DNA of 34,939 bases, from positions 1-34,939 of IMG/VR virus record IMGVR_UViG_3300044796_000014; one strand, written 5' to 3'. Positions 12,325 to 34,939 of this stretch are shown one piece after another; the stretch's first letter is position 1, and each line of letters starts with the position of its first letter. The notes under the pieces were generated by a model. That model was given only the letters and a program-made list of their open reading frames with translations, did no database searches and was not told the DNA's origin. A program made the position numbers and the translations under genes. This DNA is from a virus.

Positions 12325-12481
12325 GGTGGAGAAGGGATGCGGTTTTTTCATACCGGCCGTAGACCCTATCACCATGAGAGAGCCTGTGCTTAAAAGCGCC
12401 GTACGCGCTAGAGTATGGGGGGTTGTTTTATATGGTGTTAAAAATGGGTGTATGGGGCTGCTATTTATTCGCACCAAGTGA
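12290..12481 (+). CDS. Small hypothetical phage protein (63 aa) at the convergent junction
   Basis: A short protein whose shape is common among phage early mini-proteins: an aromatic/acidic N-terminus IPWDKVEKGCGFFIP, a helix with LKSAVRARVWG, and a strand-rich end. That 'W-D-K-V-x-x-G-x-x-F-F-I-P' opening supports real coding despite a weak ribosome-binding site. It overlaps the preceding gene by 35 bases in another frame, so coupling is likely. Its 3' end overlaps the 3' end of the convergent giant gene by 21 bases (12461-12481). Function unknown. Confidence 0.6.
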   Translation: MNASHLNIPWDKVEKGCGFFIPAVDPITMREPVLKSAVRARVWGVVLYGVKNGCMGLLFIRTK

Positions 12482-15400
12482 GCTTATTGACTGCACAATT
12501 CCTGCTTTCTGTCTGTTGTAATTGTCTATCAGCACGCGTTTCTTTTCAGGCGTAATATTAGGATTGTCGGTAATCAAGCGCTCTACTTTATTCATCTCAC
12601 CGGCTGCTTTACTCACGGCTGCAGCTCCCGCGCCTTCGCCCAGCCATTCTGGGTACGCTTTCAACAGCGCATCGCCTTTAGCTGTTTGCCCTGATTCATA
12701 GTAGTGCGTTAGCGTATTCTTCATTGTGGATGCTTGCGCCGTACCGTCTAGGAAATCCCCTATTATGCCATTGCCAGACACATCTTGCCGTAGACCACCT
12801 AAGAACGGTACTTGATGTGGCAGCATAGTAGGCCGTGGTACGCCCATACCCACATGGTTAAATAGGGATACAAACGCGCTCCCCATGCCCCCAAGGTATT
12901 CTTTAGCGATGTAGTCTAGTTGTACAGGAGATAGCCCTTCTGTAAAGCCTAAGTGCTGTTTAATCCACGGATTGCCCGTGTACTGCCCCGCTGCTTTGGC
13001 AAGCTCGCTTGTATCTGGCAAAGAACGTGCAGGCTTTAATAAGTGCTGCAAGCGTGTGTTTTCTATTTCTTGCGAGCTCAAGGCGTTGGTGTGATTAAAC
13101 CCTAAGCTTACTAATGGTGCTATGGCTTCTGGTAAGCCGCCTGGCATGCTCTCTAATACTAAGTCACCTAGAGCCCTAGTCGCTGTCCCTACTTTGGTAT
13201 CTCCATGCATAATCGCTACCATGGCTTCTGGTATTGATTTAACCAATATGCCAGGTTCAAATGGCAGCGGTAGTTTGTACGGCTCTACGCCAGGAGTTTC
13301 GCTCAGTAATAACCAGTTCTTTAGTCTGTCTTCTTCTGAAATAATTTTATAGTTTGGGTTGTTGCGCACAGCCAAGGCGTACCCCACACTGGCTGCAGAT
13401 ATGAAAGCAGCACGCCGAAACAACTTGCCCTGTACATTCAGACGCTTATTAAAGGGCATCTGACCTCTAGCTGATCTGTAGAACACATCCAGACCTTGCA
13501 TTAAAGCATTCATAAAAGGTATTGTCTGTATGTATGAGTTCATGAACCCACTACCACCGCGCCGGGAGAAGTTCATGGATTCCAGCGATGCGTAAAAAGA
13601 CTCAACTGGAGACAAACCTTGTTTTATAAAATCGTTATACAGCGTTGCACGCGTGCCCATATCAGCACGCACCACATTCTTTTCAAAGAAACCTAGTGTT
13701 TTACCCATCACAGAGAAAGCCCCTCTGTCGCCCATTGAATACCGCATTACTGCAGCAGCATCAGGATCGCCGTAGTGCAGTGCGCCACCACCGCCTACAC
13801 CAGCTTTGCGTAGAAGTGAAGATGTAGGGTCTTTACCACCTATGTCCTTAAACACGTGCTTGAGAGCGCCTATGAAAGGTATCGCGTTAGATCCTGTAGT
13901 CAGCCATGAGAACGGTGAGTGCCTAAACAAAACACGAGGGGCGAACAGCGGGTTCATTTCTGTTAAGAACCGTGTAGCTTTCGCAGGGGCTCGCATCATC
14001 TTTATAAACATGGAGTTCATTTGGGGTGTGCCTTCCAACCCCTTAATCAGCATCTCTACAGGTATGTCGCTAAAATCTGAGTGTGCTGTAGAATTAAGCC
14101 TCATGGCCTCTGGCACCCCATTAACTCTAAAATGGAGAACATCTCTGCCAGCAGCACCTGCGCCTACTTTTTCCCCAATACCTAAATCACGCATGCTCTG
14201 CGCCGTCTGGGATGTTGCCAGGTTGTGCAGCATTGACGTAACCAACATGTGCGTATTGCGCATAGCATCTTCAGCAAAGCCGCCAATAGGGCGATTACCC
14301 CCAACTAACTCTTGGAGCCACGGCTGATTCTTTAAGTCCCCTATGGTTCGCACACCTTCGCCTTCAACAAACAGTTCTAGGTTGCCATCTTTCATGCGGT
14401 AGTATGGTACGTAATCTTTACGGCTAAGCCAATTATCAGCTTCTTCAGGTGTTAGCACACCTGCATCGCGTAAACCGTTTACTAGATTTTTATTGTACTT
14501 ATCATAGAGATCTCTGGCTTCTTGCATATGGGGGTTAGCATCCCACTTCGCCACAAACTCTGCGCGCCTAGCAGGGTCTACATCAGCACCTAACTTACCT
14601 TTCCACTCAGGGTTAGCATCTTCACGTTTGAAGGCCATATACGTCTTCATCAGGCCATCTAGCTGCATGGATGTGTAGCCCTTTATTTTTTTCAATGCTT
14701 TACCAATATCAGGTAGCCCAACATGCCCAGCGCCTTTTTCTATAGTAGGCCAGTACTGACCATACCCGCGCCCAGAATCAAACAGCTTGTTAAGCAGCTG
14801 ACCACCATGGGACATTACCTCAGTAACGAAGGCCATTGAGTTGTGGAAAGTGCGGGTACTAGCCAGCATCTGGAACGCTGCTTGGTATCTTTTATCCTGT
14901 GGATTATCCCCCACACGCTCTAGTATTTTTGCTTGCGCAGCAGCTTTATCCAGTGTTTTATAGCGTAGCCCTAGCCCAGCACGAAACATGGTAAGACCAA
15001 ACGCAGGCCTTTCACCATCTTTACCTGTAACTGCATTAACTAAATCAGAGTCTGCGTGCTTCTTAGAAAACAAAGGTTCTGCAGTACGCCCTTCATCATG
15101 CACACCCGCACCCATCTCCACCTTGGCAGCACCATGCGCCATGTCAACCAAGTCTTGCAAAGACATTTCTTTCTTAGGCAGTTCACCAAACCACTTTTCA
15201 AATGCTTTAGCAGCCCACTGCTTGATGCGCTGCAACATAGACCCTAGAGGCCCATCTGTAGGCTTAATGCCTGCTTTAACAGCTTCTTCGATCGTGTAGG
15301 CTATGGCTTCATCGTGTGCTTGATTGCCGGCTGTGCCTGCATCTTTAACTCGCTCCATAGCAGCTTTAGCTACAGTGCTTTCAACAGACCCATCATCTTT

Positions 15401-18400
15401 CTTTGCCCAATCCAGAATCTTGTTGGCAATCCCTTTGTACGCTTCTGGTGGCAGCATATTCTTCATGCCTATGTGTGCGCCTACCTCATGCAGGAACACA
15501 CCCTGTGCTTCGCCTTTACCAATATTTTCCCCAAACAAATGCGCTTGACCTTTGTGCACCATACCCTTGGTAGTGTCATCAATCTTGCCTTCATATTCAG
15601 GATGCGATTTTATGAAGTCAGCAACGGTTTCATGCACTAGCACTTTGTGCCCTTCAGCACCCACAGCCCCATAGCCTTTCAATTCATCTACGACACCTTG
15701 GCGGCCAATACCTTCTTCAGACTTAGCACCTTTAGATTCTAAAGGCAGTCCTGTTTCAACATTAAAATCGTGGTCTATATCGTACCCTGCAGCTTCAAGC
15801 ATTCCTTCGTGGTCAGGGTTAACATCCCGTAAAGGACGATCTTCTAAAGCTTTTTTAATATCAAACACGCCCCGTAGATTAGTACGTGCAGTTCTTTCAG
15901 GGTTATTACCACGCCGTTTAAGTACGCCTTTTGTATCAAGTATTTCTTTGTATTCAGCTAGTTCTCTTTTTTCTTCTACAGATAGGTTAGCGCCTTTTTT
16001 CTCCAATTCATTAACACGGTCAATAATTTGAGCTTCCGAAAGTCTAGTAGCTTCTTTACCTAAAGCGTCAAGTTTAGCTTGAGCCCCATCAGCCTCTTCC
16101 CGCAGAATAGAAGCAATAGCATCATTCCCTTTTTTCTCTGCAATATCAGCCTTCTCATTAAGTGTTTTAATCTTAGTCTTTAATTTAGCATCCTCTGTTT
16201 CTGCAGCTTTAATTATTGTAGTAGCTGCAGTTAAGCGCTTAGTAAGTCTTTTCACAGCATCTTCATGGCGTTTTATTTCAGCGCTAACAGCTTGATGTTC
16301 GGCAGTTCCTTCCTTACTCCCTTCTTTAACCAATCTTTCTCTGGCTTCTTTTACTGCACCTTGAGCTTCTTTTATTTGGGCAGGTAGTTGGTTGGCAGCA
16401 TCTTTAGCCACAGACACTCTTGATGCTTTTTTAATACCGGCCATTTGTGTAGCAGCTTCAGTGCTTTCCGCACGCATTTCTGCTGCAGTTTTTTCTTGGG
16501 CTCCTATAGGGTATTTAGTAGCCTGCATAACTTCTCGGCGTGTTCTGTCTTTAAATAACTCTAGTTGTTTTTTAAGGCTTTCTTTTTGTGAATCTGCGAT
16601 GTCTGGATTTGCAATAGCTTTGTTAAGCCGTGAAATTTCTGCTTTTTCTTCAGCAGTACGTGCATGTAGAACAGTACGCTCCGTAGTAGTTTCTCGCACA
16701 TTGCCCTGTGCATCTTTTGTGCGCTTAGTTTCTGTGCGAGTAAAAGGTTCGTTTTTATGTACAAACGCATTTACTACAGCGCCTTGGCCTTCTAAATGGG
16801 AAGGTAGCCCTGCGGCGCTAAACTGCTCCAGATTATGCTGCTCTTGCTTGCGCATTTCATCCCGGGTACTTGTATCAAGCCTTTCGTGAGCCTGCGAAGG
16901 CTCTGTATACGCAGCGTGCGCAGCTGCTATTTCTTCTCCTATCGGTGCCCAAGGAGTTCCTTTTTGTGCTGCTACTTCTTCTTGCGTGCGTGGGGCAGTA
17001 GCATTATCATTCTTATGTAGCTCATAGTGCAGCGCATCCAAGGTAGGCGCAGTTACTTTATTGTCACGTATACTCAGCGCAGTATTAATGCGCCCTATTT
17101 CTGGCTTAGACCTAGCTTCAATCGCATCCAGAGCATCTTTTACTTTGGCACTATAAGCTGCGGCTTCCGTTTTGGTTAAGGGTTCATTGCCATTACGCAG
17201 GCGTGTGTAGGTTGATTCACGCAGAGCGGCATCACGGTAGGCTTCTTTACTTTTCTCTACAGTATCAGCAAGACTACGGCGCTGGGCTCTCCTAGCTAAA
17301 ACATCTTCTTTAATTCCGGTCTTTTCTTCTGCTGTAAGTACAGACCCCTTATCCCCACGCGCTTTTGCAAAAGCTTCTTGCAGCGCTGTTCTAGTTGTTG
17401 GACCTTTTTTCGTGTACAGCTGTGGCGCAGCTGTATCTGGTGAACCATGCAGGCCATACAGACCAGTGTAAAGGTTATTCAACGCTGTGCGCTTGTCTGC
17501 AACTGCCTGCGCAATACGGGGCTCAATCTGCTGCTCTTGCGCGCCAGGTATAATATCGCGCCCCGTGTCCCGCACAGTTAAATTATTAAGGTACTTAACT
17601 TCATCACTTATCTTACCCAGCGCCATATCACGTACTGCAGCACCTTTACCAGTGAAGCCAGTCACATCTATGCCAAGGTTCTTAGCCACTTTACGCATTT
17701 CAGGCAAGCCTACGGCATTTTTAACAGTATCTTTTACTTCAGAATCTCCCGATGCTAGATCTGCACCGCGTACGAGCAAGTCTCTAGCAGCTACAGCAGC
17801 ATCACTATCAGGGTCAACATGCGTTTTAGCAGAGCCTTCAGGGGTAACTACATCTGAGGGTGTGTTTAAGTTAGCGGCATCCAGTGGAGCACGCGGTACT
17901 ACTGCAGGCGTTTGCTCTGTTCCCTGTTCCTGACCAATGGTTGTGGAGGGTGCGCTAGTTTCAGTAGTATCAGCATTACTAGTTTGCGCTTGACTATCAG
18001 CGTTTGCCGCAGTCTGTTTAGCTTTAAGGGCTTCAATAATGTCATTTGGTGTCGTCCCCTTAGTGACTTTAATGCCGTTATTCTTGGTGATCTTTCTTAA
18101 GTTGTTAGTCATCATCGCTGGTACACCGCCATCTTCTACCGACTGCAGTAGAGATTCTGCTTCTGGCGTAATAATACCTGTGATGTTTGGTGGATTAGTA
18201 ACTTTCTGGTTAAGTTCGTCTTTAAGAGTTTGCGCTTCAGTAGTTATAGGTGGCACTACATCTGCGCCAGGTTCAGCGTGCGCTTCTTTCAGTTTTTGTT
18301 GTAGCGCAGCAAGTTGCGTAGATAGGCTGGCTATACCCGCAGTATCTTCTTTTTTAATGGCTGCTTTAATTTTCGTGTTAAGTGCTGCTATCTGCGCAGT

Positions 18401-19726
18401 AAGAACGTCCTGGTTACTCTGCACTACACCACTTGCTGGTTTGGGTATATCTACAGTAGTGCCTTCTGGAGTGCCTGTCAGGGTACGGTATGTTTGCTCA
18501 GCCTTCGCTTTCGCAGCAGTATGCTCTTGTATGGCAGTTGTGGCTGCAGCTTGCCTAGCTTGAAAATCTTCAGGCGTTTCCCCTTCTTGCATCGGGGTAG
18601 TAAGTCCTTGGGCAGCATCCAGTATGTTAGCGTGCGCTTGGTGATAGTCTGCAGATGCGCCAGCTAAATCAGTTTGGTAGTTAGGTGCTGATTCACGTAA
18701 TTTTTTAGCATCAGCTACTTTGGCTGCATCAGCTTTATCTGCAGCAGTGTTTATATAATCTTCTTGCTTACCACGCTGGCCAATCGTGCTGAGGCCACCA
18801 AATATAAGAGCCGGTGCAATGCCCGTAGCTAGACCGTTAGTGTATTGGCTAAGCGCTTCAGGACTTGTAGTATCTTGCCCAGCCTGCCAGCGCTGCAGAG
18901 CTTCAGACCCCGCACCCATGGTTTCAAGGCCGACATAATTACTAGCGGCGTTCTTCATGTAGTTCTTGTAGGTGGTAGAGAGTTGACCCAACGCAGCCTC
19001 TCTAGATAAATCACCCTTGGCTATATCAGCGCTCATAGCTGCAATATCTTTTCCCAGCATGCCCTGCATGAGCTTTGGAAACACACCGAATGTAGGAATG
19101 CCAAAACCCAATAATGCTGATTGGCCTAAGTCAGCAGCAACAGCTTTTAACTTATCTGGAGGAACATCTGGATTTACATGCTGTTGGTAGTCCAGGTTTT
19201 CGCTTAACCCTGCAGGCATATTAGCGGCTGCCGTACCAAAAGCTCTAACTGCTGCACGTGTTCCTAGAGCACCTAGCGCTGCAATGCCTTCTTCAGGTGC
19301 GGCTAACGCTGCCAAAGCTCCTACTGCCAACTGGGGGCCTACTCCACCAACCAAACTACCAATAGGTTCAGTGCCATACTTACGAAAGCCAGCACCTAAG
19401 CCACTACCAAGACCAGTATTAAATCCTGCAGCCACATCTTCATCTGAAGTTGGGATATAATCTTTACCAGCTTCTGCACTGGTTTTTGTGCCGAGGTCTT
19501 CTAGGGGTTTGTAGCCAAGCCAAGATCCTGCTGTTTTTTCAGTACCACCTAAAACCCCACTTGCTGCAGCACCCATGGCAGGAAAAAACCCTTGCTTACT
19601 TGATTTTTCATCGGGGGTAAGCATTTCATTGGGGAATTGCTGTTGTGCGAGTGCAGCCGCTTGCGCGGCATCCATGCCTGCCGGTATTTCAAGATACTGC
19701 CCGCTAGGGAGTTGCAGATAGGCCAT
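12461..19726 (-). CDS. Giant polyvalent internal virion/ejection protein (2421 aa) with HExxxH motif
   Basis: The largest gene, 2421 codons. It opens with LQLPSGQYLEIPAGMDAAQAA, an N-terminal 'LP.G..lEiP.gm...qA' peptide seen on phage virion proteins. Residues about 50-330 are Gly/Ala-rich and hydrophobic, with stretches such as APALIFGGLSTIG that could insert in membrane. About 330-1330 is Ala/Lys/Glu-rich and probably a very long coiled coil. A putative metallopeptidase follows, with HEVGAHIGM (H1413, E1414, H1418). The C-terminal 850 residues (from about GLTMFRAGLGLRYKT) resemble the large polyvalent protein-associated regions of phage virions. Polyvalent proteins are packaged and injected with the DNA. 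Being next to the transglycosylase supports an ejection role. AAGGG precedes ATG 19726. Confidence 0.85.
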   Translation of the reverse strand: MAYLQLPSGQYLEIPAGMDAAQAAALAQQQFPNEMLTPDEKSSKQGFFPAMGAAASGVLGGTEKTAGSWLGYKPLEDLGTKTSAEAGKDYIPTSDEDVAAGFNTGLGSGLGAGFRKYGTEPIGSLVGGVGPQLAVGALAALAAPEEGIAALGALGTRAAVRAFGTAAANMPAGLSENLDYQQHVNPDVPPDKLKAVAADLGQSALLGFGIPTFGVFPKLMQGMLGKDIAAMSADIAKGDLSREAALGQLSTTYKNYMKNAASNYVGLETMGAGSEALQRWQAGQDTTSPEALSQYTNGLATGIAPALIFGGLSTIGQRGKQEDYINTAADKADAAKVADAKKLRESAPNYQTDLAGASADYHQAHANILDAAQGLTTPMQEGETPEDFQARQAAATTAIQEHTAAKAKAEQTYRTLTGTPEGTTVDIPKPASGVVQSNQDVLTAQIAALNTKIKAAIKKEDTAGIASLSTQLAALQQKLKEAHAEPGADVVPPITTEAQTLKDELNQKVTNPPNITGIITPEAESLLQSVEDGGVPAMMTNNLRKITKNNGIKVTKGTTPNDIIEALKAKQTAANADSQAQTSNADTTETSAPSTTIGQEQGTEQTPAVVPRAPLDAANLNTPSDVVTPEGSAKTHVDPDSDAAVAARDLLVRGADLASGDSEVKDTVKNAVGLPEMRKVAKNLGIDVTGFTGKGAAVRDMALGKISDEVKYLNNLTVRDTGRDIIPGAQEQQIEPRIAQAVADKRTALNNLYTGLYGLHGSPDTAAPQLYTKKGPTTRTALQEAFAKARGDKGSVLTAEEKTGIKEDVLARRAQRRSLADTVEKSKEAYRDAALRESTYTRLRNGNEPLTKTEAAAYSAKVKDALDAIEARSKPEIGRINTALSIRDNKVTAPTLDALHYELHKNDNATAPRTQEEVAAQKGTPWAPIGEEIAAAHAAYTEPSQAHERLDTSTRDEMRKQEQHNLEQFSAAGLPSHLEGQGAVVNAFVHKNEPFTRTETKRTKDAQGNVRETTTERTVLHARTAEEKAEISRLNKAIANPDIADSQKESLKKQLELFKDRTRREVMQATKYPIGAQEKTAAEMRAESTEAATQMAGIKKASRVSVAKDAANQLPAQIKEAQGAVKEARERLVKEGSKEGTAEHQAVSAEIKRHEDAVKRLTKRLTAATTIIKAAETEDAKLKTKIKTLNEKADIAEKKGNDAIASILREEADGAQAKLDALGKEATRLSEAQIIDRVNELEKKGANLSVEEKRELAEYKEILDTKGVLKRRGNNPERTARTNLRGVFDIKKALEDRPLRDVNPDHEGMLEAAGYDIDHDFNVETGLPLESKGAKSEEGIGRQGVVDELKGYGAVGAEGHKVLVHETVADFIKSHPEYEGKIDDTTKGMVHKGQAHLFGENIGKGEAQGVFLHEVGAHIGMKNMLPPEAYKGIANKILDWAKKDDGSVESTVAKAAMERVKDAGTAGNQAHDEAIAYTIEEAVKAGIKPTDGPLGSMLQRIKQWAAKAFEKWFGELPKKEMSLQDLVDMAHGAAKVEMGAGVHDEGRTAEPLFSKKHADSDLVNAVTGKDGERPAFGLTMFRAGLGLRYKTLDKAAAQAKILERVGDNPQDKRYQAAFQMLASTRTFHNSMAFVTEVMSHGGQLLNKLFDSGRGYGQYWPTIEKGAGHVGLPDIGKALKKIKGYTSMQLDGLMKTYMAFKREDANPEWKGKLGADVDPARRAEFVAKWDANPHMQEARDLYDKYNKNLVNGLRDAGVLTPEEADNWLSRKDYVPYYRMKDGNLELFVEGEGVRTIGDLKNQPWLQELVGGNRPIGGFAEDAMRNTHMLVTSMLHNLATSQTAQSMRDLGIGEKVGAGAAGRDVLHFRVNGVPEAMRLNSTAHSDFSDIPVEMLIKGLEGTPQMNSMFIKMMRAPAKATRFLTEMNPLFAPRVLFRHSPFSWLTTGSNAIPFIGALKHVFKDIGGKDPTSSLLRKAGVGGGGALHYGDPDAAAVMRYSMGDRGAFSVMGKTLGFFEKNVVRADMGTRATLYNDFIKQGLSPVESFYASLESMNFSRRGGSGFMNSYIQTIPFMNALMQGLDVFYRSARGQMPFNKRLNVQGKLFRRAAFISAASVGYALAVRNNPNYKIISEEDRLKNWLLLSETPGVEPYKLPLPFEPGILVKSIPEAMVAIMHGDTKVGTATRALGDLVLESMPGGLPEAIAPLVSLGFNHTNALSSQEIENTRLQHLLKPARSLPDTSELAKAAGQYTGNPWIKQHLGFTEGLSPVQLDYIAKEYLGGMGSAFVSLFNHVGMGVPRPTMLPHQVPFLGGLRQDVSGNGIIGDFLDGTAQASTMKNTLTHYYESGQTAKGDALLKAYPEWLGEGAGAAAVSKAAGEMNKVERLITDNPNITPEKKRVLIDNYNRQKAGIVQSISSLGANK

Positions 19727-21602: not shown

Positions 21603-22955
21603 CTAACTTCTCCTCGCCATGGCTTTCTGTAGCCCAAGTTTAGCCAGCCCTTCGCCCATATTCTTTTTACCTACTGAAGTACGTTTAACTTTACCACCCT
21701 TCTTACCGAACGCCTGTGTAATACCATAAGCGCCTAAACCTGCGCTAGCTACCTGACTCGCAGCAGTTGCCGGTGCTTGGTATACTTGAGAAGTTGCGCC
21801 ACCAGTAGGCACCCCAGATACTATATTAGACATGAAGCCAAGCTGATTATATGGTGCATTAAGTTGGTTCTGGTATGTGGAATAATCTGTAGATGCTATG
21901 TTCTGGTTAAGTGCCTGTTGCTGCGTGCCGGCTGTAAGTTGTGCCTGTGTAATACCGGCATTCTGCGTGTACTGATCCTGCCCTAAAGTGCCCAGCGTGT
22001 TAGCGCCGGACAAGGCTGTATTCTGCCCTTGAATACCTGTAGCAGCGCCTTGTAAGGCTGTGTTAACGCCCGCTAGACCTGTATTAGCTCCAGCGATGCC
22101 TGCTTGAGCACCAGCAATACCAGTGTTAGCACCGGCAATACCCGCTTGAGCCCCTGTAATACCTTGAGCAGTACCCTGCATGCCAAGACCAGCAGCCGTA
22201 TTCATCTGGTTCTGGGCGTTACTAAAGGCTGTGTTATATCCTGAAGATACCAGTTGGTTCATTGCAAGATCTTGATTCTGTTGATTTAATCCAGACATCA
22301 AAGCTTCACGACTACCACCAAAAGCGCCCGCACCCGTAGCTTGCCCTTGCTCCTGTTGCCCTTGAATACCATACTGTTGATTGAGCAACTGCTCTTGGGG
22401 GGCTAAAGACTGCTGCAAATATGGATTCATGTAGGAACCAACAGACCCAGGGCCTGTAGAAGAGTTTTGCGACTGTGCAGCCACACTCTGCCCTATATTT
22501 TGTCCGGTAAGCCCCGATTGCTGCCCTTGTGCTCCATACCCAGCGCCTTGGACACCCATATTCACACCCATACCGCCAGCCTGCGCACCTTGGGCACCAT
22601 AACCTAGGCCTCCTACTGTGCCTATTTGGGCTGCTGCATTACCCATATTGGAAGCGGTAGTAGAGGCGTTATTAGCTATGTTAGAGCCTTGGTTAATCTG
22701 CCCAGCCTGCTGCATATTTGCGATGTTACCGTAGGCTTGATTTTGAAGCGCTGTAGAGCCTGCTACCTGGCCATTAGCATAGGTCTGTGAGTTCTGCCCA
22801 GAAGCCCCTACATTAGAAGGGCCATTATATGGGTTTGGAGTCGTGCCAGTAAGTGCTGATGCCTTACCCAGCATTGACTGGACATAGGGAGTCCCATACT
22901 GTGAAATTAGGGTTTGACTGTTCGTTTGTGCTTGGGGTTGTGAGGGGCCGCTCAT
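21603..22955 (-). CDS. Gln/Gly-rich putative virion/ejection protein with heptapeptide repeats
   Basis: A 450-aa low-complexity protein very rich in Gln, Gly, Ala and Asn. Residues 265-320 are eight consecutive heptapeptides of the form G-I-A-G-A-x-x (GIAGANT, GIAGAQA and variants), flanked by further Gly/Gln-rich sequence (about 110-160). An ordered segment at 175-255 (YMNPYLQQSLAPQEQLLNQQ and on, then FGGSREALMSG) is typical of podovirus-type internal or DNA-transfer proteins. The end is basic (KKGGKVKRTSVGKKN). Its ATG overlaps the GNAT stop by 4 bases (ATGA, 22952-22955). Location between the transglycosylase and other virion genes suggests an ejection or tail component. A catalytic function is not apparent. 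Confidence 0.75.
   Translation of the reverse strand: MSGPSQPQAQTNSQTLISQYGTPYVQSMLGKASALTGTTPNPYNGPSNVGASGQNSQTYANGQVAGSTALQNQAYGNIANMQQAGQINQGSNIANNASTTASNMGNAAAQIGTVGGLGYGAQGAQAGGMGVNMGVQGAGYGAQGQQSGLTGQNIGQSVAAQSQNSSTGPGSVGSYMNPYLQQSLAPQEQLLNQQYGIQGQQEQGQATGAGAFGGSREALMSGLNQQNQDLAMNQLVSSGYNTAFSNAQNQMNTAAGLGMQGTAQGITGAQAGIAGANTGIAGAQAGIAGANTGLAGVNTALQGAATGIQGQNTALSGANTLGTLGQDQYTQNAGITQAQLTAGTQQQALNQNIASTDYSTYQNQLNAPYNQLGFMSNIVSGVPTGGATSQVYQAPATAASQVASAGLGAYGITQAFGKKGGKVKRTSVGKKNMGEGLAKLGLQKAMARRS
21996..22163 (-). repeat. Eight-copy heptapeptide (21-bp) coding repeat
   Basis: Eight successive 21-bp coding units (residues 265-320 of the Gln/Gly-rich protein) read GITGAQA, GIAGANT, GIAGAQA, GIAGANT, GLAGVNT, ALQGAAT, GIQGQNT, ALSGANT. 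The units diverge at DNA level, so this is an old selected repeat rather than a fresh slippage tract. Confidence 0.85.
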
Positions 22956-23791
22956 GGTTTCACCTTTGTATACACGCGCTCAATGGCACTATAGCCTAAG
23001 CGCTCGAATAAAACTCCAACATCCAATTTAAGTTTAGTTGGCATGTAGATTCTCTGCACGCCGCGCTGCCACAACGTATTCTCAGCATACTTAAACAAAT
23101 TCAAACCCACACGCCCTCTACGATATTCTGGATGAATAAAGAACAAATCTGTGTAAGCCGTTAAACTGTCCTTATAGTGCAGATGTGGTCTTATAAAGCT
23201 TAAGTGGTATCCGATTAAAATACCCTCTTTTCTACAAGTTACGATATGCAGGTTGTGTCTTTCTTCAGCTTCTTCATAAGAGTCCATATCTGGATTAAGC
23301 TTAATAACATCCTTATTAGCAGCTATTTCTTCAAAATGCATCTCTGTCAGTCTTTGGGCATCTGCGTAACTTGTGTGAAGATTCTCTATTGCGTATGTAC
23401 AGCCTCCAATAATCATACCCGCGTAATATTCATGCAGCTTTTTAGCTTGCGGGGTTTCTATGCCTACACACCTAGCATCTCTTTGAAAACTGCCCAGCAC
23501 CTCAAACGCTTCAGTAGCAGCTTCTGGCACATCTTTAGGTGTGTACATTACGTCTACGCATAACCGAGCACCACCAGGATATTCTTTTTGCGTAGTTACA
23601 AAAAAACCTACGAGCCTGGTTGTATTTGGCTCAAAAATACCCCATAAAACAGAGTGCCCTGTGAACACACGCTCAAACACTTCATCTATAGCGCTGCCCC
23701 TAAGAGGCGTAAAATGAATCAAAATGCTCAAATCCGCTATTATTTGGTGTACATATCCTTTTGGGATTGTAGATATTTGGAACTTGTTCAT
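22952..23791 (-). CDS. GNAT-type acetyltransferase-like protein within the virion operon
   Basis: A 279-aa protein. The C-terminal half has a GNAT fold outline: a strand with EGILIGYHLSF (about 189-199), TAYTDLFFIHPEYRRGRVGL (about 211-230) as the acetyl-CoA-binding motif A, and a final strand-helix-strand ending RLGYSAIERVYTK (about 264-276). The motif is RRGRVG rather than the canonical Q/R-x-x-G-x-G, so catalysis is uncertain. The N-terminal half (WGIFEPNTTRLVGFFVTTQ, ARLCVDVMYTPKDV) looks like a second, degenerate GNAT unit. It shares 4-base ATGA overlaps with both neighbours, so it is locked into the virion operon. It could modify a host or virion protein, or be a structural protein that kept the fold. 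Confidence 0.8.
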   Translation of the reverse strand: MNKFQISTIPKGYVHQIIADLSILIHFTPLRGSAIDEVFERVFTGHSVLWGIFEPNTTRLVGFFVTTQKEYPGGARLCVDVMYTPKDVPEAATEAFEVLGSFQRDARCVGIETPQAKKLHEYYAGMIIGGCTYAIENLHTSYADAQRLTEMHFEEIAANKDVIKLNPDMDSYEEAEERHNLHIVTCRKEGILIGYHLSFIRPHLHYKDSLTAYTDLFFIHPEYRRGRVGLNLFKYAENTLWQRGVQRIYMPTKLKLDVGVLFERLGYSAIERVYTKVKP

Positions 23792-30230: not shown

Positions 30231-31445
30231 CTATCGGGCCCTTCGTGCATACACACTGCCGTATCCAGTTAATGTTCCTCCAGAGAAGCCTGAATATATA
30301 TACAAATACGCATTTGTTGAAGTACTTACACTAACCCTAACTGTAGGAGCTGTAAATGCCATTTGTACCCCTGTGCCACTCATCCCGAACGGACCCCCCA
30401 TAGAAGAAGTCATCCCCGTTGTCCCCATACCTATTGCAAGATACGATTGAACCGTTCCTGACCCGCATGTTGCAGAACCATTCCCAAACACATCCCAATC
30501 ACCTGCAGAAAGAGCCAGTGTTACCACCGTAATAGTTGAAGTGCTCACTAGTGCAGTTCCTACAGCGTTCGTAGCAGAAAGAACTTCTCCAATAACTCCT
30601 AAACCCGCATTTGACCCATTAGAAACGCCTGTAAAAGTGTTCGCTCCAGACCACGCGTTATTACCATTTACTGTTGGTAAATATGCTGCAGCAAAAGAAG
30701 ATGCGCCGATACCCCCATTACTTTGTGCTAAAGGTGTAGAAAATCCTAGAGTAACAGCGCCACCTGTATTCACTACTGATATAGCAGATGAATTGATTGT
30801 TGAAATGCCTGTTACTGCACCTGTAAACCCGTTGAATGATGTAACACCGCCTCCCCCTCCACCCCCAGAAACAGCAACTGAAGACGCAGCTGTAATCTGC
30901 CCCTGCGCATTTACAGTTATTACTGGAATGTATGTAGAAGACCCGTATGATCCTGCTGTAACTGCAGTATTCGTAACAGATACCGTAGATCCTACAACTG
31001 TAAGGCCTGTTCCTGCAGAGATGTTGCCTGAAGAATTAGCTACAAAATAAAAATTAGTACCGTCAGTGTATACAACAGAAGTTGTCCCACTAGCAATGCT
31101 AACTGTAGTGCCAGGAGTTCCTACTACACTCATCGTAATAGCAAACCCACCAACCGTATTGTTGGCGACAATGTATACTTTTTGTTGACCTGAAGGGGTA
31201 AATATGTTCTTTACAGCAGCATTAGTACCTAGTACTTCAAGAACAGCATTGCGTGCTTCATCTGCCGCACCGTTATAGTTAGATAACGTGTAGTCGGCAT
31301 TTGCCATAGTAATACCTCGAACACCTGTAATAGCTTGTTCTAGCAAAGTGCCTAAATTATTGTTTGTAGTAGCACCCCACGTACCGGCTTGATCGCCACT
31401 ACCCATTAATTCTAATTTTAGTGAAGGTGAATATGTTGAGGCCAT
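30231..31445 (-). CDS. Tail fibre protein (404 aa)
   Basis: N-terminal residues 1-60, [20 protein letters not shown] then [20 protein letters not shown], form a conserved attachment module found on many podovirus and siphovirus fibres. After that comes a beta-rich shaft with [14 protein letters not shown] (about 204-217) and a distal Ser/Thr/Gly region ending in [17 protein letters not shown] precedes ATG 31445. Likely mediates host receptor binding together with the tailspike upstream. No catalytic domain seen. Confidence 0.85.
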
Positions 31446-31458
31446 AATTACTCCTTAT

Positions 31459-33642
31459 TTAGCATTCGTACCACTGTGTACCATTATGAACTAGAGTCAT
31501 TGTACTACCTGCAGAAACTGCTCTAGTACCGCCTATAAGAAGTACAGAATAATAAGCGCCTGTAGATGACGTAAAAGTAAGACTACCCTGAAAAACAAGT
31601 GTAACTGTGCGCATAGGACTAGACTGAATAGCACTAATTCCTGTAGTACCCGTAATATTAAAAATGCTGCCTGAGTTGGGTAAATTAATGCCTGAAGCAG
31701 AAACAACAGCCTGCGGTACTATTGTAGTATCTGCAATAATGCTAGTGTAATCGCCGTAGTCATTATTAGCACCTATAAAAAATAGGGATGTAGTTACTGT
31801 TGCATGAAAAGGAATAGAGTATATTAGTGAAAGTCTGCAGTCATCCACAAAGATCCTAGATGTTGCTGATGTTGTTACTACTGCAGATTCTACTGCTCTA
31901 AACTGGCTGTTATGTATAGAACAATCTCCACTAACTACATAAACCCCATCTCCAGGGCCTCCCGGTGCACCTTCTAAAACATTTAACTCAGAAATAGTTA
32001 CAAAATTACTGGCTGTAACATTAATATAAACAGCACAGTAGTACATTGCTACAGACTGGCATCCTACTAGCCTAGTATCTACACTAGTTCCTATTACTTG
32101 AAACCCATACGTCCCTGAATATAGCGGTCCTGCAGAATATGCATTATCTGCGCTGCAGTTTAATAAAGTGCATGCATTTACACTGTTTAAGCAAAAACCT
32201 ATCAAATATCCGTATGCAAAACAATTTGTTATTTTTGCATTATCGGCGGTGTTATATAGGTAGTAGGCTGTACCTGTTCTTGTTAAAGTTGTGTATGTAC
32301 CGCCATAACTTACAGTAGCAAAAGGCCATGCGTGGCATCCAAAAATATGTGTTATATCTTGTGAATTTTGTATTGCTATTCCATTATTATCATGATATAG
32401 ATATTGTATGTGGTGCCTATCATACCCATTAGATATTACACCCTGGTTAAATCCTATAATCATACTATTTAAAATAAAAGTATCATCGCCTGCAATAGTG
32501 ACGGCAGTACCTGTCCAAGAAGAAGACGAAGTTTGTGGGAATGTCATTCCATAAGGGTATATAAGGCACCCTTGAATACCTGCACTATACCCAAGAGAAA
32601 TAGTGTGTGTAGTTGCTAAAATAATAGCAGACATTGCGGCGTAGTTTTGTGGAGAACTCTGTGTTGATGGGCTTCCAACAAAGCTATAAGGACCTTGTAT
32701 TGTTACGTTGTTAGGGACAGTTAAAGTAGCATTAACGTAGTATGAATAGCCTGAAGGAAGATATAAAGTACCTCCTTTAGTACCAAATGAATTTAATGCG
32801 TTTTGAAATGCTACATGATCATCAGTTGTGCCATTACCTACAGCACCAAAAGACATTATGTTTATAAAAGGACTGGCTACTGCCCAAGTACCATTACCGC
32901 ACAAAAAATTGCTTGATGAGGGAGTTCCGGTAACAGCACCTGCTAGAGCTGTTGAACTAGATATAAGGGTTCCTGATGTTGGAGCTGCAAGGCCTGTATT
33001 AAGCACTGTACCTGTTGTGCCACTCCATGTAGGTACGTACCCTGAAGTTGATGAGCCTGGCCCCGAAACATTACCCCCCCCAGTCGGAGTAGCCCAAGTT
33101 CCATCTCCTCGTAGAAATGTAGTAGAAGATGGTGTGCCTGTTATGGGGTTAGCTGTTGGCGCTACAGTGCTAGCAATAAGAACGCCGGAAGTTGGAGCCG
33201 CAAGCCCAGCAGCGAGTGTAGTACCCCCTGTACCACTCCATGTAGGCACATAACCTATTGTAGATGTACTAGGGCCTGTAACAGTGCCTCCTCCTGCAGG
33301 AGTAACCCAAGTTCCATCATTACGCAAAAATGAACTAGATGATCCTCCTGGAGCTGCTATGGTGTATGCACCCCAAGTCATAGACGATGTAATACTTGGG
33401 GTAGTTAAACTAGGAGAGTTCGCTAATACTAAAACGGTGCCGGTACCAGTAGTAGTGTATGAGACACCCCATGCCGAACCCGTTGAATTAGGAATGCCTA
33501 CACCTGGATACACCATACCACCACCAGTAGGGGGTGCGCTAGACCACGCAATACCCGTAGAAGTCAAAACATTACCAGAAGCACCGGGGTTTATTAGCCC
33601 TGTACCCCCATTACTTGTTGGCAGTGGTGATGTTGAAGACAC
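31459..33642 (-). CDS. Tailspike/tail fibre with pectate-lyase-like beta-helix
   Basis: A 727-aa receptor-binding protein. The N-terminus (SSTSPLPTSNGGTGLINPG) and the two 70-residue units at about 104-244 (each with FLR.DGTW and GYVPTWSGT..GLAAPTSG) are shaft repeats. A parallel beta-helix of the pectate lyase superfamily follows from about residue 259 (INIMSFGAVGNGTTDDHVAF, then TLYLPSG), with many GXXN/cyst-like coils to about 640. The C-terminus is small and strand-rich. Such spikes often bind or cleave capsular or O-antigen polysaccharide; I cannot locate catalytic residues by eye. The start is GTG 33642 with AAGGAT 4 bases upstream. It lies 8 bases after the repeat protein stop. Confidence 0.85.
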   Translation of the reverse strand: MSSTSPLPTSNGGTGLINPGASGNVLTSTGIAWSSAPPTGGGMVYPGVGIPNSTGSAWGVSYTTTGTGTVLVLANSPSLTTPSITSSMTWGAYTIAAPGGSSSSFLRNDGTWVTPAGGGTVTGPSTSTIGYVPTWSGTGGTTLAAGLAAPTSGVLIASTVAPTANPITGTPSSTTFLRGDGTWATPTGGGNVSGPGSSTSGYVPTWSGTTGTVLNTGLAAPTSGTLISSSTALAGAVTGTPSSSNFLCGNGTWAVASPFINIMSFGAVGNGTTDDHVAFQNALNSFGTKGGTLYLPSGYSYYVNATLTVPNNVTIQGPYSFVGSPSTQSSPQNYAAMSAIILATTHTISLGYSAGIQGCLIYPYGMTFPQTSSSSWTGTAVTIAGDDTFILNSMIIGFNQGVISNGYDRHHIQYLYHDNNGIAIQNSQDITHIFGCHAWPFATVSYGGTYTTLTRTGTAYYLYNTADNAKITNCFAYGYLIGFCLNSVNACTLLNCSADNAYSAGPLYSGTYGFQVIGTSVDTRLVGCQSVAMYYCAVYINVTASNFVTISELNVLEGAPGGPGDGVYVVSGDCSIHNSQFRAVESAVVTTSATSRIFVDDCRLSLIYSIPFHATVTTSLFFIGANNDYGDYTSIIADTTIVPQAVVSASGINLPNSGSIFNITGTTGISAIQSSPMRTVTLVFQGSLTFTSSTGAYYSVLLIGGTRAVSAGSTMTLVHNGTQWYEC
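32911..33333 (-). repeat. Two 70-residue shaft repeats in the tailspike
   Basis: Residues about 104-174 and 175-244 of the tailspike are related units starting FLRNDGTW and FLRGDGTW, followed by TGPSTSTIGYVPTWSGT or SGPGSSTSGYVPTWSGT, GLAAPTSGVLIAS or GLAAPTSGTLISS, and GTPSS. A third partial start (FLCGNGTWAV) follows at 245 just before the beta-helix. Confidence 0.85.
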
Positions 33643-33650
33643 TTTTATCC

Positions 33651-34244
33651 TTATGCATCATTTACTGGTACCCACAATACCCCTTGGGTATCGTTTATTT
33701 GCACCCATGTGGTGCTCTCATTGTTGTTTATAGCTCCCCAAGCAGGGCTTTCATTATCGTTTATTCTATACCACCCTGTAAATGTTAGGGTATCTATTAA
33801 AGCCGTTGTTTCTGATACAATACCTTTAAAATATACTTGTGGAGTTACAATATCTTGAGTATAGACAGTTTCATTTAAATACGTATTATAAGCTCCCGTA
33901 CTATTTTGCACAACTGAGTAAGTAACGGTCTCTACTACTGAGGCACCACCATTCCAAATAGCTGTTGATGCATCAGTGTAGGTAATAGTTTCTGTTATTG
34001 CTCCACTAGTACCCCAAACAACATTCTGGCTATCAGAAAATGTGCTTGCTTCCGTAATAGCTGCACTAAATAAAAGCCCCCCCACATAAGAATCAGTATA
34101 TATAATACTTTCCGTTATGCTGCTGTTTGTATTCCAGGCTCCCAAAATAGTATCTGTAAAAGTACTTGTTTCGGCTACAGTGGCGCCATACACAGTACCG
34201 AGTGCAGCAAAAGGCGTTTTGGCAAGTGGCGTAAAACCAAACAT
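33651..34244 (-). CDS. Repeat-based virion/fibre-associated protein (197 aa)
   Basis: A protein of near-perfect repeat design. After a 22-residue head come seven units, six of them 20 residues, each starting with a hydrophobic residue plus (x)ET/ES: V23-, I43-, I63-, I83-, V103-, L123-, V143-. Each has (T/S)-x-D or similar at mid-repeat. The C-terminal 37 residues are 11-residue units starting I161, I172, I183, V194 (INDNESPAWGA, INNNESTTWVQ, INDTQGVLWVP). Strand-turn repeats with ITE/D turns suggest a beta-solenoid or fibre-like shaft, comparable in style to virion adhesins. GAGGT lies before ATG 34244. It is adjacent to the tailspike. Function not known. Confidence 0.75.
   Translation of the reverse strand: MFGFTPLAKTPFAALGTVYGATVAETSTFTDTILGAWNTNSSITESIIYTDSYVGGLLFSAAITEASTFSDSQNVVWGTSGAITETITYTDASTAIWNGGASVVETVTYSVVQNSTGAYNTYLNETVYTQDIVTPQVYFKGIVSETTALIDTLTFTGWYRINDNESPAWGAINNNESTTWVQINDTQGVLWVPVNDA
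33654..34178 (-). repeat. 20-residue repeat array followed by 11-residue repeats
   Basis: Codons 23-160 (34178-33765) contain seven 20-residue-period units (consensus (I/V)-x-E-(T/S/A)-x-x-(F/Y)-x-D; last unit 18 residues), and codons 161-197 (33764-33654) contain units of period 11 (I-N-(D/N)-x-(E/Q)-x-x-x-W). The register is exact over almost the whole protein, and the DNA has diverged, so selection on protein structure maintains it. Confidence 0.85.
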
Positions 34245-34313
34245 TAGTTACCTCAAAACAATTTTAATACAGTACAACGTAATAAAAAACTACGATTTCC
34301 CCTAGTTCTGCCG

Positions 34314-34527
34314 TTAAAACATTATTAAAAAGTTACTTGAAGATGTTGATACTATATAGGTGATAACAACGATGCCTTGAGCGCCGGTTCCATTAGTTGT
34401 AGCACCACCACCACCGCCACCCCCAATTGCTTCAACCTGTATTGAGGTAACACCCGCAGGTACAGTCCAAGTCTGTGCGCCGGTAGTGGTATTTGACGAT
34501 AGTGTTATTGAGTAGTTTGGCGATCAT
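34314..34527 (-). pseudogene. Frameshifted/broken glycine-rich fibre-type ORF
   Basis: ATG 34527 has GAGG 7 bases upstream and forms ATGA with the preceding stop, but its frame stops after 31 codons. The adjacent frame is open to TAA 34314-34316 and encodes SITLSSNTTTGAQTWTVPAG, VTSIQVEAIGGGGGGG and a short end GAQGIVVITY, the typical glycine-rich fibre domain. Removing one base from the run AAACTAC (about 34510-34515) would give MIAKYSITLSSNTT..., a natural fusion of start and domain. It is also shorter than usual: a seven-glycine run goes straight to the end. Natural decay, a sequencing error or programmed frameshift remain possible. A 69-codon open frame also directly follows the upstream TGA in the same frame. 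Confidence 0.6.
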
Positions 34528-34939
34528 GGTTTTTCCTCATTCCGTTTTTTTATTGCCCGTTGTATTGCGGCTTCGTGCGCCACCTTATCTGTAATTTGTG
34601 CCAGCAATGCCGCATAGACATCCTCAACAGACTTCATTTGGAGGATTGTAGACGCTAGGCGCTGTTCGAGGTTCTTGCGATCTTCTCCTCTTGGCGTTGT
34701 TTGCAGCATATGCTCAAAGTTTTTCTTGTCAAAATCATAGTGGAAATGTTCTAGTTCACGTGCATAAAGAGCTTCTGCAATAACATCTTCTTTGTATGTT
34801 GAATCAAGTTGTCTGTATTTCATGCTTTCCTCATTAGGTAAACGCAACACCATACCCGGTGCTAGCAGGTAGCGTTCCGGGATTGGTGAATTTGGTGCCA
34901 AAGCCGCTCCCCGACCAAGGGTAAGCGGATACGTATGGG
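34524..34939 (-). CDS. C-terminal part of an unknown phage protein (5' end beyond the window)
   Basis: An open frame running in from the right edge to TGA 34524-34526. It begins within the window as HTYPLTLGRGAALAPNSPIP and includes LLAPGMVLRLPNEESMKYRQ, then helical charged sequence (EALYARELEHFHYDFDKKNF, RGEDRKNLEQRLASTILQMK) and ends in KRNEEKP. A TTG at 34901 is possible but the frame stays open to the edge, so I treat it as partial. No family recognised; it is upstream of fibre genes on the late strand and could be a head/tail or chaperone-type protein. Confidence 0.6.
   Translation of the reverse strand, partial: HTYPLTLGRGAALAPNSPIPERYLLAPGMVLRLPNEESMKYRQLDSTYKEDVIAEALYARELEHFHYDFDKKNFEHMLQTTPRGEDRKNLEQRLASTILQMKSVEDVYAALLAQITDKVAHEAAIQRAIKKRNEEKP

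Follow-up and report, generated by a model that had tools for sequence, protein, structure and literature searches.

A three-module repeat protein, proposed as a tail-associated fibre, is common among uncultured phages

The fibres of adenovirus and of phage T4 carry shafts built as triple beta-spirals or similar beta-repeats, and in phage fibres generally the N-terminus is the virion-proximal end. Another repeat architecture is that of curli, in which each unit, some 20 residues long or longer, contributes two beta-strands. Here we describe a family of phage proteins that, like the viral repeat-shaft fibres, appears to combine short beta-strand repeats as a length-setting shaft with distinct N- and C-terminal modules. 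It differs from them in its own 20- or 22-residue periods, in an acidic pair at unit positions 4 and 10 (E4/D10) and in an 11-residue W/I/Q array at the C-terminus. The likeness to the curli protein CsgA and to FapC lies in the two predicted beta-strands of each unit; the structural match is not significant.

The closest described proteins are gp68 of Pelagibacter phage HTVC023P (QGZ17697.1) and WJZ48131.1 of phage DSL-LC04, the members that we found in cultured or complete phages, both annotated as hypothetical protein. Like the protein studied here, they consist of a head, a repeat shaft and C-terminal W-x-x-(I/V) 11-mers. The head reads LLGITAISQSPIASLGG in gp68, while WJZ48131.1 bears an alternative head rich in tryptophan and glycine. 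Both have shafts of a 22-residue TGVxAxGxVG type, whereas ours is of a 20-residue ETxTxTD type. The annotated repeat-containing tail fibre of the Natrialba phage PhiCh1 (QBJ01213.1) was also considered, as tblastn aligned it with one relative (L074) at 30% identity (E=3e-4). Its repeat is a different one (AMDAVSxSQT), it lacks the head and the W 11-mers of the family, and we rejected it as a homologue since the match is probably compositional. Literature searches turned up no relevant account of repeats of this kind in phage fibres.

Two repeat periods in a gene of the tail-fibre region

The window, by which we mean the whole analysed stretch of 34,939 nucleotides (IMG/VR record IMGVR_UViG_3300044796_000014), encodes a repeat protein composed of three modules (Table 1). 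Motifs of the form (I/V/L)xE(T/S/A) recur in it at a spacing of 20 throughout, beginning at residues 23 (VAET), 43 (ITES), 63 (ITEA), 83 (ITET), 103 (VVET), 123 (LNET) and 143 (VSET). Behind them, 11-mers of the form Wxx(I/V)N begin at W158, W169, W180 and W191. Identity autocorrelation peaked at lag 20 for residues 21-157, a value equalled at any lag by none of 5000 shuffles, and at lag 11 for residues 156-197, where 11 of 5000 shuffles equalled it. Both registers that a preliminary description had read from the sequence, the second from I161, I172, I183 and V194, are thus borne out. Its word 'exact' for the 20-residue repeats holds for the spacing and not for the sequence, the units being about 24% identical at lag 20.

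Table 1. Positions in the window of the repeat gene, its modules and two genes of the tail-fibre region
Feature	Position	Strand	Description
Whole repeat gene	33651..34244	(-)	197 aa, ATG start, three modules
Head module, residues 1-18 (MFGFTPLAKTPFAALGTV)	34191..34244	(-)	Family motif MFG(I/F)xxFAxxPFAxLxG; proposed virion-docking end
Shaft, residues 23-157	33774..34178	(-)	Seven 20-residue units, the last running into the tail; two beta-strands predicted per unit
Tail, residues 158-197 and stop codon	33651..33773	(-)	W..(I/V)N 11-residue array of three full units and a partial one, reaching the C-terminus
Tailspike, 727 aa, pectate-lyase-like	31459..33642	(-)	PF12708 E=1.4e-8; tail spike PHROGs; separates the repeat gene from its usual neighbour
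Tail-fibre-type protein, 404 aa, N-terminal 'GTWG' domain	30231..31445	(-)	phrog_31104 (N-terminus), phrog_11393 tail fiber (C-terminus)

The preliminary description was also right in placing the gene beside a tailspike. Along the direction of transcription the window runs from a 125-aa ORF through the repeat gene, the tailspike and the GTWG gene to a small ORF, followed by an endolysin (PF00959, E=2.5e-18) and by two ORFs with an Rz/Rz1-like look, judged by position and sequence. The tailspike additionally matches PF25692 (Phage_depo_C, E=0.0018) below the family cut-off.

Three other features of the window deserve mention. A glycine-rich frame of about 70 codons (TVPAGVTSIQVEAIGGGGGGG; 34311-34523, minus strand) immediately follows, without a shift in frame, the TGA of the 125-aa ORF (34524-34901). 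It has no canonical start codon; the gene may be disrupted, the assembly faulty or the start an unusual one. The virion-gene region contains an ORF of 2421 aa (12461-19726, minus strand) that has no PHROG match and is a candidate for a giant ejection or internal virion protein. A GNAT acetyltransferase domain (PF00583, E=4.5e-8) is encoded at 22952-23791 on the minus strand among the virion genes, where such a gene is also annotated in ct7L0027 and in JC1 (PMC9144972). The 'virion-associated phage protein' of Burkholderia phage Bcep22, a relative of JC1, came up as a BFVD fold match of our repeat protein (E=0.064) and was rejected; proteomics of JC1 gave no link to the family (PMC9144972).

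The repeat protein had no Pfam, PHROG or NCBIfam match at the family cut-off or at E<1e-5, and the weak matches of single relatives to these libraries were scattered and mutually inconsistent. A profile of 89 relatives matched no PDB chain at E<=1 and hence no solved fibre. The suggestion that the protein might be undescribed is correct as far as Pfam, PHROGs and NCBIfam are concerned; it needs tempering in that such proteins are common in uncultured phages and are annotated as hypothetical in two or more phages that are cultured or complete.

Relatives with constant ends and exchangeable shafts

Used alone as a query, the window protein gave no match by tblastn in annotated phages or in an IMG/VR peptide scan. 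We therefore sampled relatives with DNA patterns made from the 20-mer and the 11-mer repeats, in two IMG/VR scans of at least 120 stretches each, each scan being enriched for its own repeat. Among the matches listed, 237 ORFs passed either repeat test; the 20-mer pattern was present in 140 of them, and 120 of these 140 had the 11-mers too. As a control, we took the remaining ORFs of these contigs that reach 100 aa or more; of these 4,666, 12 had the 11-mer pattern and none the 20-mer pattern. The search for proteins with both periods thus returned relatives in which both are kept, the best by BLAST being L143 (E=2e-29, full length covered). With relatives of the same modules on hundreds of IMG/VR contigs, the ORF is not an oddity.

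Conservation across these relatives is a stronger test of the two periods than shuffling. A full-length alignment of 26 sequences (A1) has head, shaft and tail common to all. In a second alignment, made of 88 tail-anchored segments and the window protein, the glutamate is in register for all seven units: E25, E45, E65, E85, E105, E125 and E145 are each conserved in at least 90% of the 89 sequences, and W158 and W169 are invariant.

The family is virus-restricted, and bacterial genomes hardly contain it. The 11-mer pattern had no match among 84,980 genomes of bacteria and archaea (257 Gb). The 20-mer pattern had 55, of which a single one (L257) carried 11-mers too; the remainder were TETD-type low-complexity or other repeats. 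The bacterial genome collection yielded no family member besides L257 (2948-3388). Its contig belongs to a metagenome bin labelled Armatimonadetes and is probably either mis-binned phage DNA or a prophage.

Because these scans had selected on the repeats, a third IMG/VR scan was run with the head motif alone. Only five of its loci had already been returned by the two earlier scans, so the family is probably larger by far than our sample. Among the 116 head-bearing ORFs, 42 combined a TGV shaft with the tail and 30 a 20-mer shaft with the tail. The others were truncated, had other shafts (some with a tail in which Y replaces W) or were a different protein of about 120 aa; a single complete 20-mer protein fell outside the tail pattern, yet it ends in a near-perfect tail.

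The head, MFG(I/F)xxFAxxPFAxLxG, is found in 73 of the 237 repeat-selected ORFs among the matches listed, and an alternative head of the GGWGSGTWGQAGWG type in 22. In alignment A1 the window protein's head, MFGFTPLAKTPFAALG, aligns gap-free with those of the 25 relatives; G3 and F12 are invariant, and M1, F2, F7, A8 and P11 are conserved in at least 90%. The different protein of about 120 aa is charged (GGHFGFDEKKR...) and opens with an MFGxxxFAxxPFxxxG head (L329, L331, L348, L351, L359, L372, L387, L391). Otherwise unrelated, it has putative scaffold and capsid genes downstream of it and putative portal genes nearby. Since it begins with the same motif, the head is not fibre-specific.

The 20-mer shaft unit has the consensus S-(V/I)-S/T-E-T-A-T-G/A-T-D-A-(V/I)-S-A-x-A-T-F-x-x. 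In a profile of 1,044 distinct units, preselected for E/D at position 4, the most conserved positions are E4 (92%) and D10 (85%), with further preferences for V/I at 2, F/Y at 18 and S/T at 1, 3, 5, 7 and 9. Such a residue pattern is what would be expected of beta-strands with one Ser/Thr face. The second shaft type is a 22-residue TGVxAxGxVGxVxV repeat with the same head and tail around it; the shaft is thus exchangeable between constant ends. The tail follows the consensus W-x-x-(I/V)-(N/D)-(D/N)-x-Q-(T/S)-(P/A)-x and, in complete ORFs with both repeats, comprises 2-7 units with the last W 4-10 residues before the C-terminus.

Close relatives differ in length by whole units. Across 368 BLAST pairs, internal gaps cluster at 11, 20, 22, 40, 60, 80 and 100 residues. 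Of the 250 that are 10 residues or longer, 177 measure a multiple of 20 or 11, a descriptive statistic given that the pairs are non-independent and that the alignment of periodic proteins itself favours unit-sized gaps. Many members are small (140-250 aa). At the other extreme stand giant proteins of about 2,150-2,460 aa with the same 20-mers, most of them also with 11-mers (L029, L049, L058, L060, L086, L098, L100); the two named L049 and L100 had no Pfam match. Three loci (L124, L198, L239) contain two successive genes, each ending in a W..I 11-mer tail, which suggests tandem duplication.

Gene neighbourhood and a proposed role

We propose, with moderate confidence, that the gene product is a virion protein associated with the tail, a thin and probably oligomeric fibre of variable length made up of three modules that can be exchanged, and that the phage is probably a short-tailed one. 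Through its N-terminal head the protein would dock onto a conserved virion structure, probably close to the adaptor or nozzle, an orientation suggested by the general rule for phage fibres. In the shaft, beta-units of two strands each would be stacked, their count setting a length that changes by whole units, and the C-terminal 11-residue W/I/Q array would form the distal end, either a tip for registration and oligomerisation or a weak adhesive. The protein may act together with the neighbouring tail-fibre-type protein and, in the window phage, with the tailspike. Presence in the virion, orientation, oligomeric state and the docking and adhesive roles are what we infer here.

The gene neighbourhood speaks for this reading. 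Of 232 family loci among the matches listed, 153 contain a homologue of the GTWG gene, which is the next gene downstream (+1) in 132 and at +2 in 19; in the window phage it is at +2 on the same strand, with the tailspike intervening. GTWG homologues in cultured Roseobacter, Pelagibacter, Planktothrix and Synechococcus phages are mostly annotated as tail or tail-fibre protein, and in HTVC023P and DSL-LC04 the family member immediately precedes the GTWG gene. Upstream, a cluster matching SU10_adaptor (PF24175) is present in about half of the loci (118 of 232 among the matches listed), mostly three or four genes away, and further upstream clusters correspond to phrog_8123 and phrog_644, both of unknown role.

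An assembly partner, hinge or chaperone of the adjacent tail fibre or tailspike, not itself facing the host, would give much the same neighbourhood, and this weakens the fibre reading. In most 20-mer loci the gene lies directly upstream of the fibre-type gene (25 of 28 20-mer genes of the head-only sample adjoin it), and the small size of many members would suit such a helper. The TGV members fit it less well, as they are usually not adjacent to the fibre-type gene: only 6 of 41 adjoin it, although it lies within 6 kb in 29 of 41. This scarcity of direct neighbours weakens the fibre reading as well, and our searches yielded neither virion proteomics nor a structure of any member. What speaks more clearly for a length-setting shaft than for a helper is the wide range of unit numbers, up to proteins of 2,200-2,450 aa, and their variation by whole units. 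We regard this main rival as rather unlikely.

The head motif bears on where a fibre would attach. Its presence, in other phages, on the small protein whose gene immediately precedes putative scaffold and capsid genes would suit a head-proximal or capsid-surface (decoration) fibre instead of a tail fibre, as would upstream neighbours of the unknown roles of phrog_644 and phrog_8123. The repeat gene itself, however, sits between adaptor-type and tail-fibre-type genes, which makes a capsid location distinctly unlikely. The motif on a second, unrelated protein of a virion operon fits a general docking peptide, which the head may be, but it could equally mean something else. A bolder version, which we offer as speculation of low probability, is that the head, 14 residues long, is a docking code common to phages with short tails. 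Fibres of the 20-mer type, those of the 22-mer TGV type and the small charged protein near capsid genes, unrelated as they are, would then plug into one conserved virion socket while shafts and tips are freely swapped, and the acidic rows of E4 and D10 would stabilise a new beta-fibre, perhaps by binding cations.

Predicted structure and likeness to other repeat proteins

Two AlphaFold2 monomer models, computed from different alignments, predict at low confidence (mean pLDDT 54 and 62; pTM 0.46 and 0.44) two beta-strands per 20-mer, of about 8 and 6 residues, joined by 3-residue turns. The 11-mer end is the best-scoring part of the second model (about 75) and is without assigned secondary structure; it might find its partners in other chains. 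Foldseek comparison of both models with the PDB gave no match with E below 0.1. The best viral match (E=5e-3), an uncharacterised protein with a TM score of about 0.2, was uninformative. The solenoid envisaged in the preliminary description is not established by these models, given the low confidence of the strands, the lack of a significant fold match and an 11-mer region without secondary structure.

With two strands in every 20-22 residues or so, the units recall the layout of curli, and the top two PDB fold matches of the first model were the FapC and CsgA fibrils, at E-values of 0.11 and 0.42. Moreover, HTVC023P-type pelagiphages were reported with CsgA/B, CsgF and CsgG (PMC9599517). The protein could on these grounds be a curli-like functional amyloid, or an adhesin produced and secreted in the course of infection, belonging to a type VIII secretion set that the phage carries. 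We consider this very improbable: inspection of MFGFTPLAKTPFAALGTV reveals no secretion signal, no CsgF or CsgG family was found among the window proteins scanned (the window is possibly a fragment), and the conserved gene neighbours are virion-type. In addition, CsgA was no longer the top PDB match of the second, better model, and the profile of relatives gave no PDB sequence match. A beta-propeller or WD40-like protein, as raw phmmer against the PDB suggests (designed nvWRAP-T protein 7bie, E=2.1e-10), is ruled out for practical purposes, because that score sums repeat copies with i-Evalues of 0.25-1.4 each and the profile of relatives described above matches no PDB chain.

The repeat protein described here belongs to a family that is real, conserved, widespread and uncatalogued. 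It is ordinary in kind, a repeat-shaft protein and probably a fibre, and unusual in the exchange of its shaft under constant ends. A gene common in uncultured phages, situated in a receptor-binding neighbourhood and absent from the curated family libraries searched, thereby receives a testable name and a domain plan. As a cultured pelagiphage carries a member, the fibre question can be answered at the bench. If the protein is a virion fibre, its unit-wise length, two shaft types and constant head and tail would show how phages rebuild their host-contact parts by exchanging modules.
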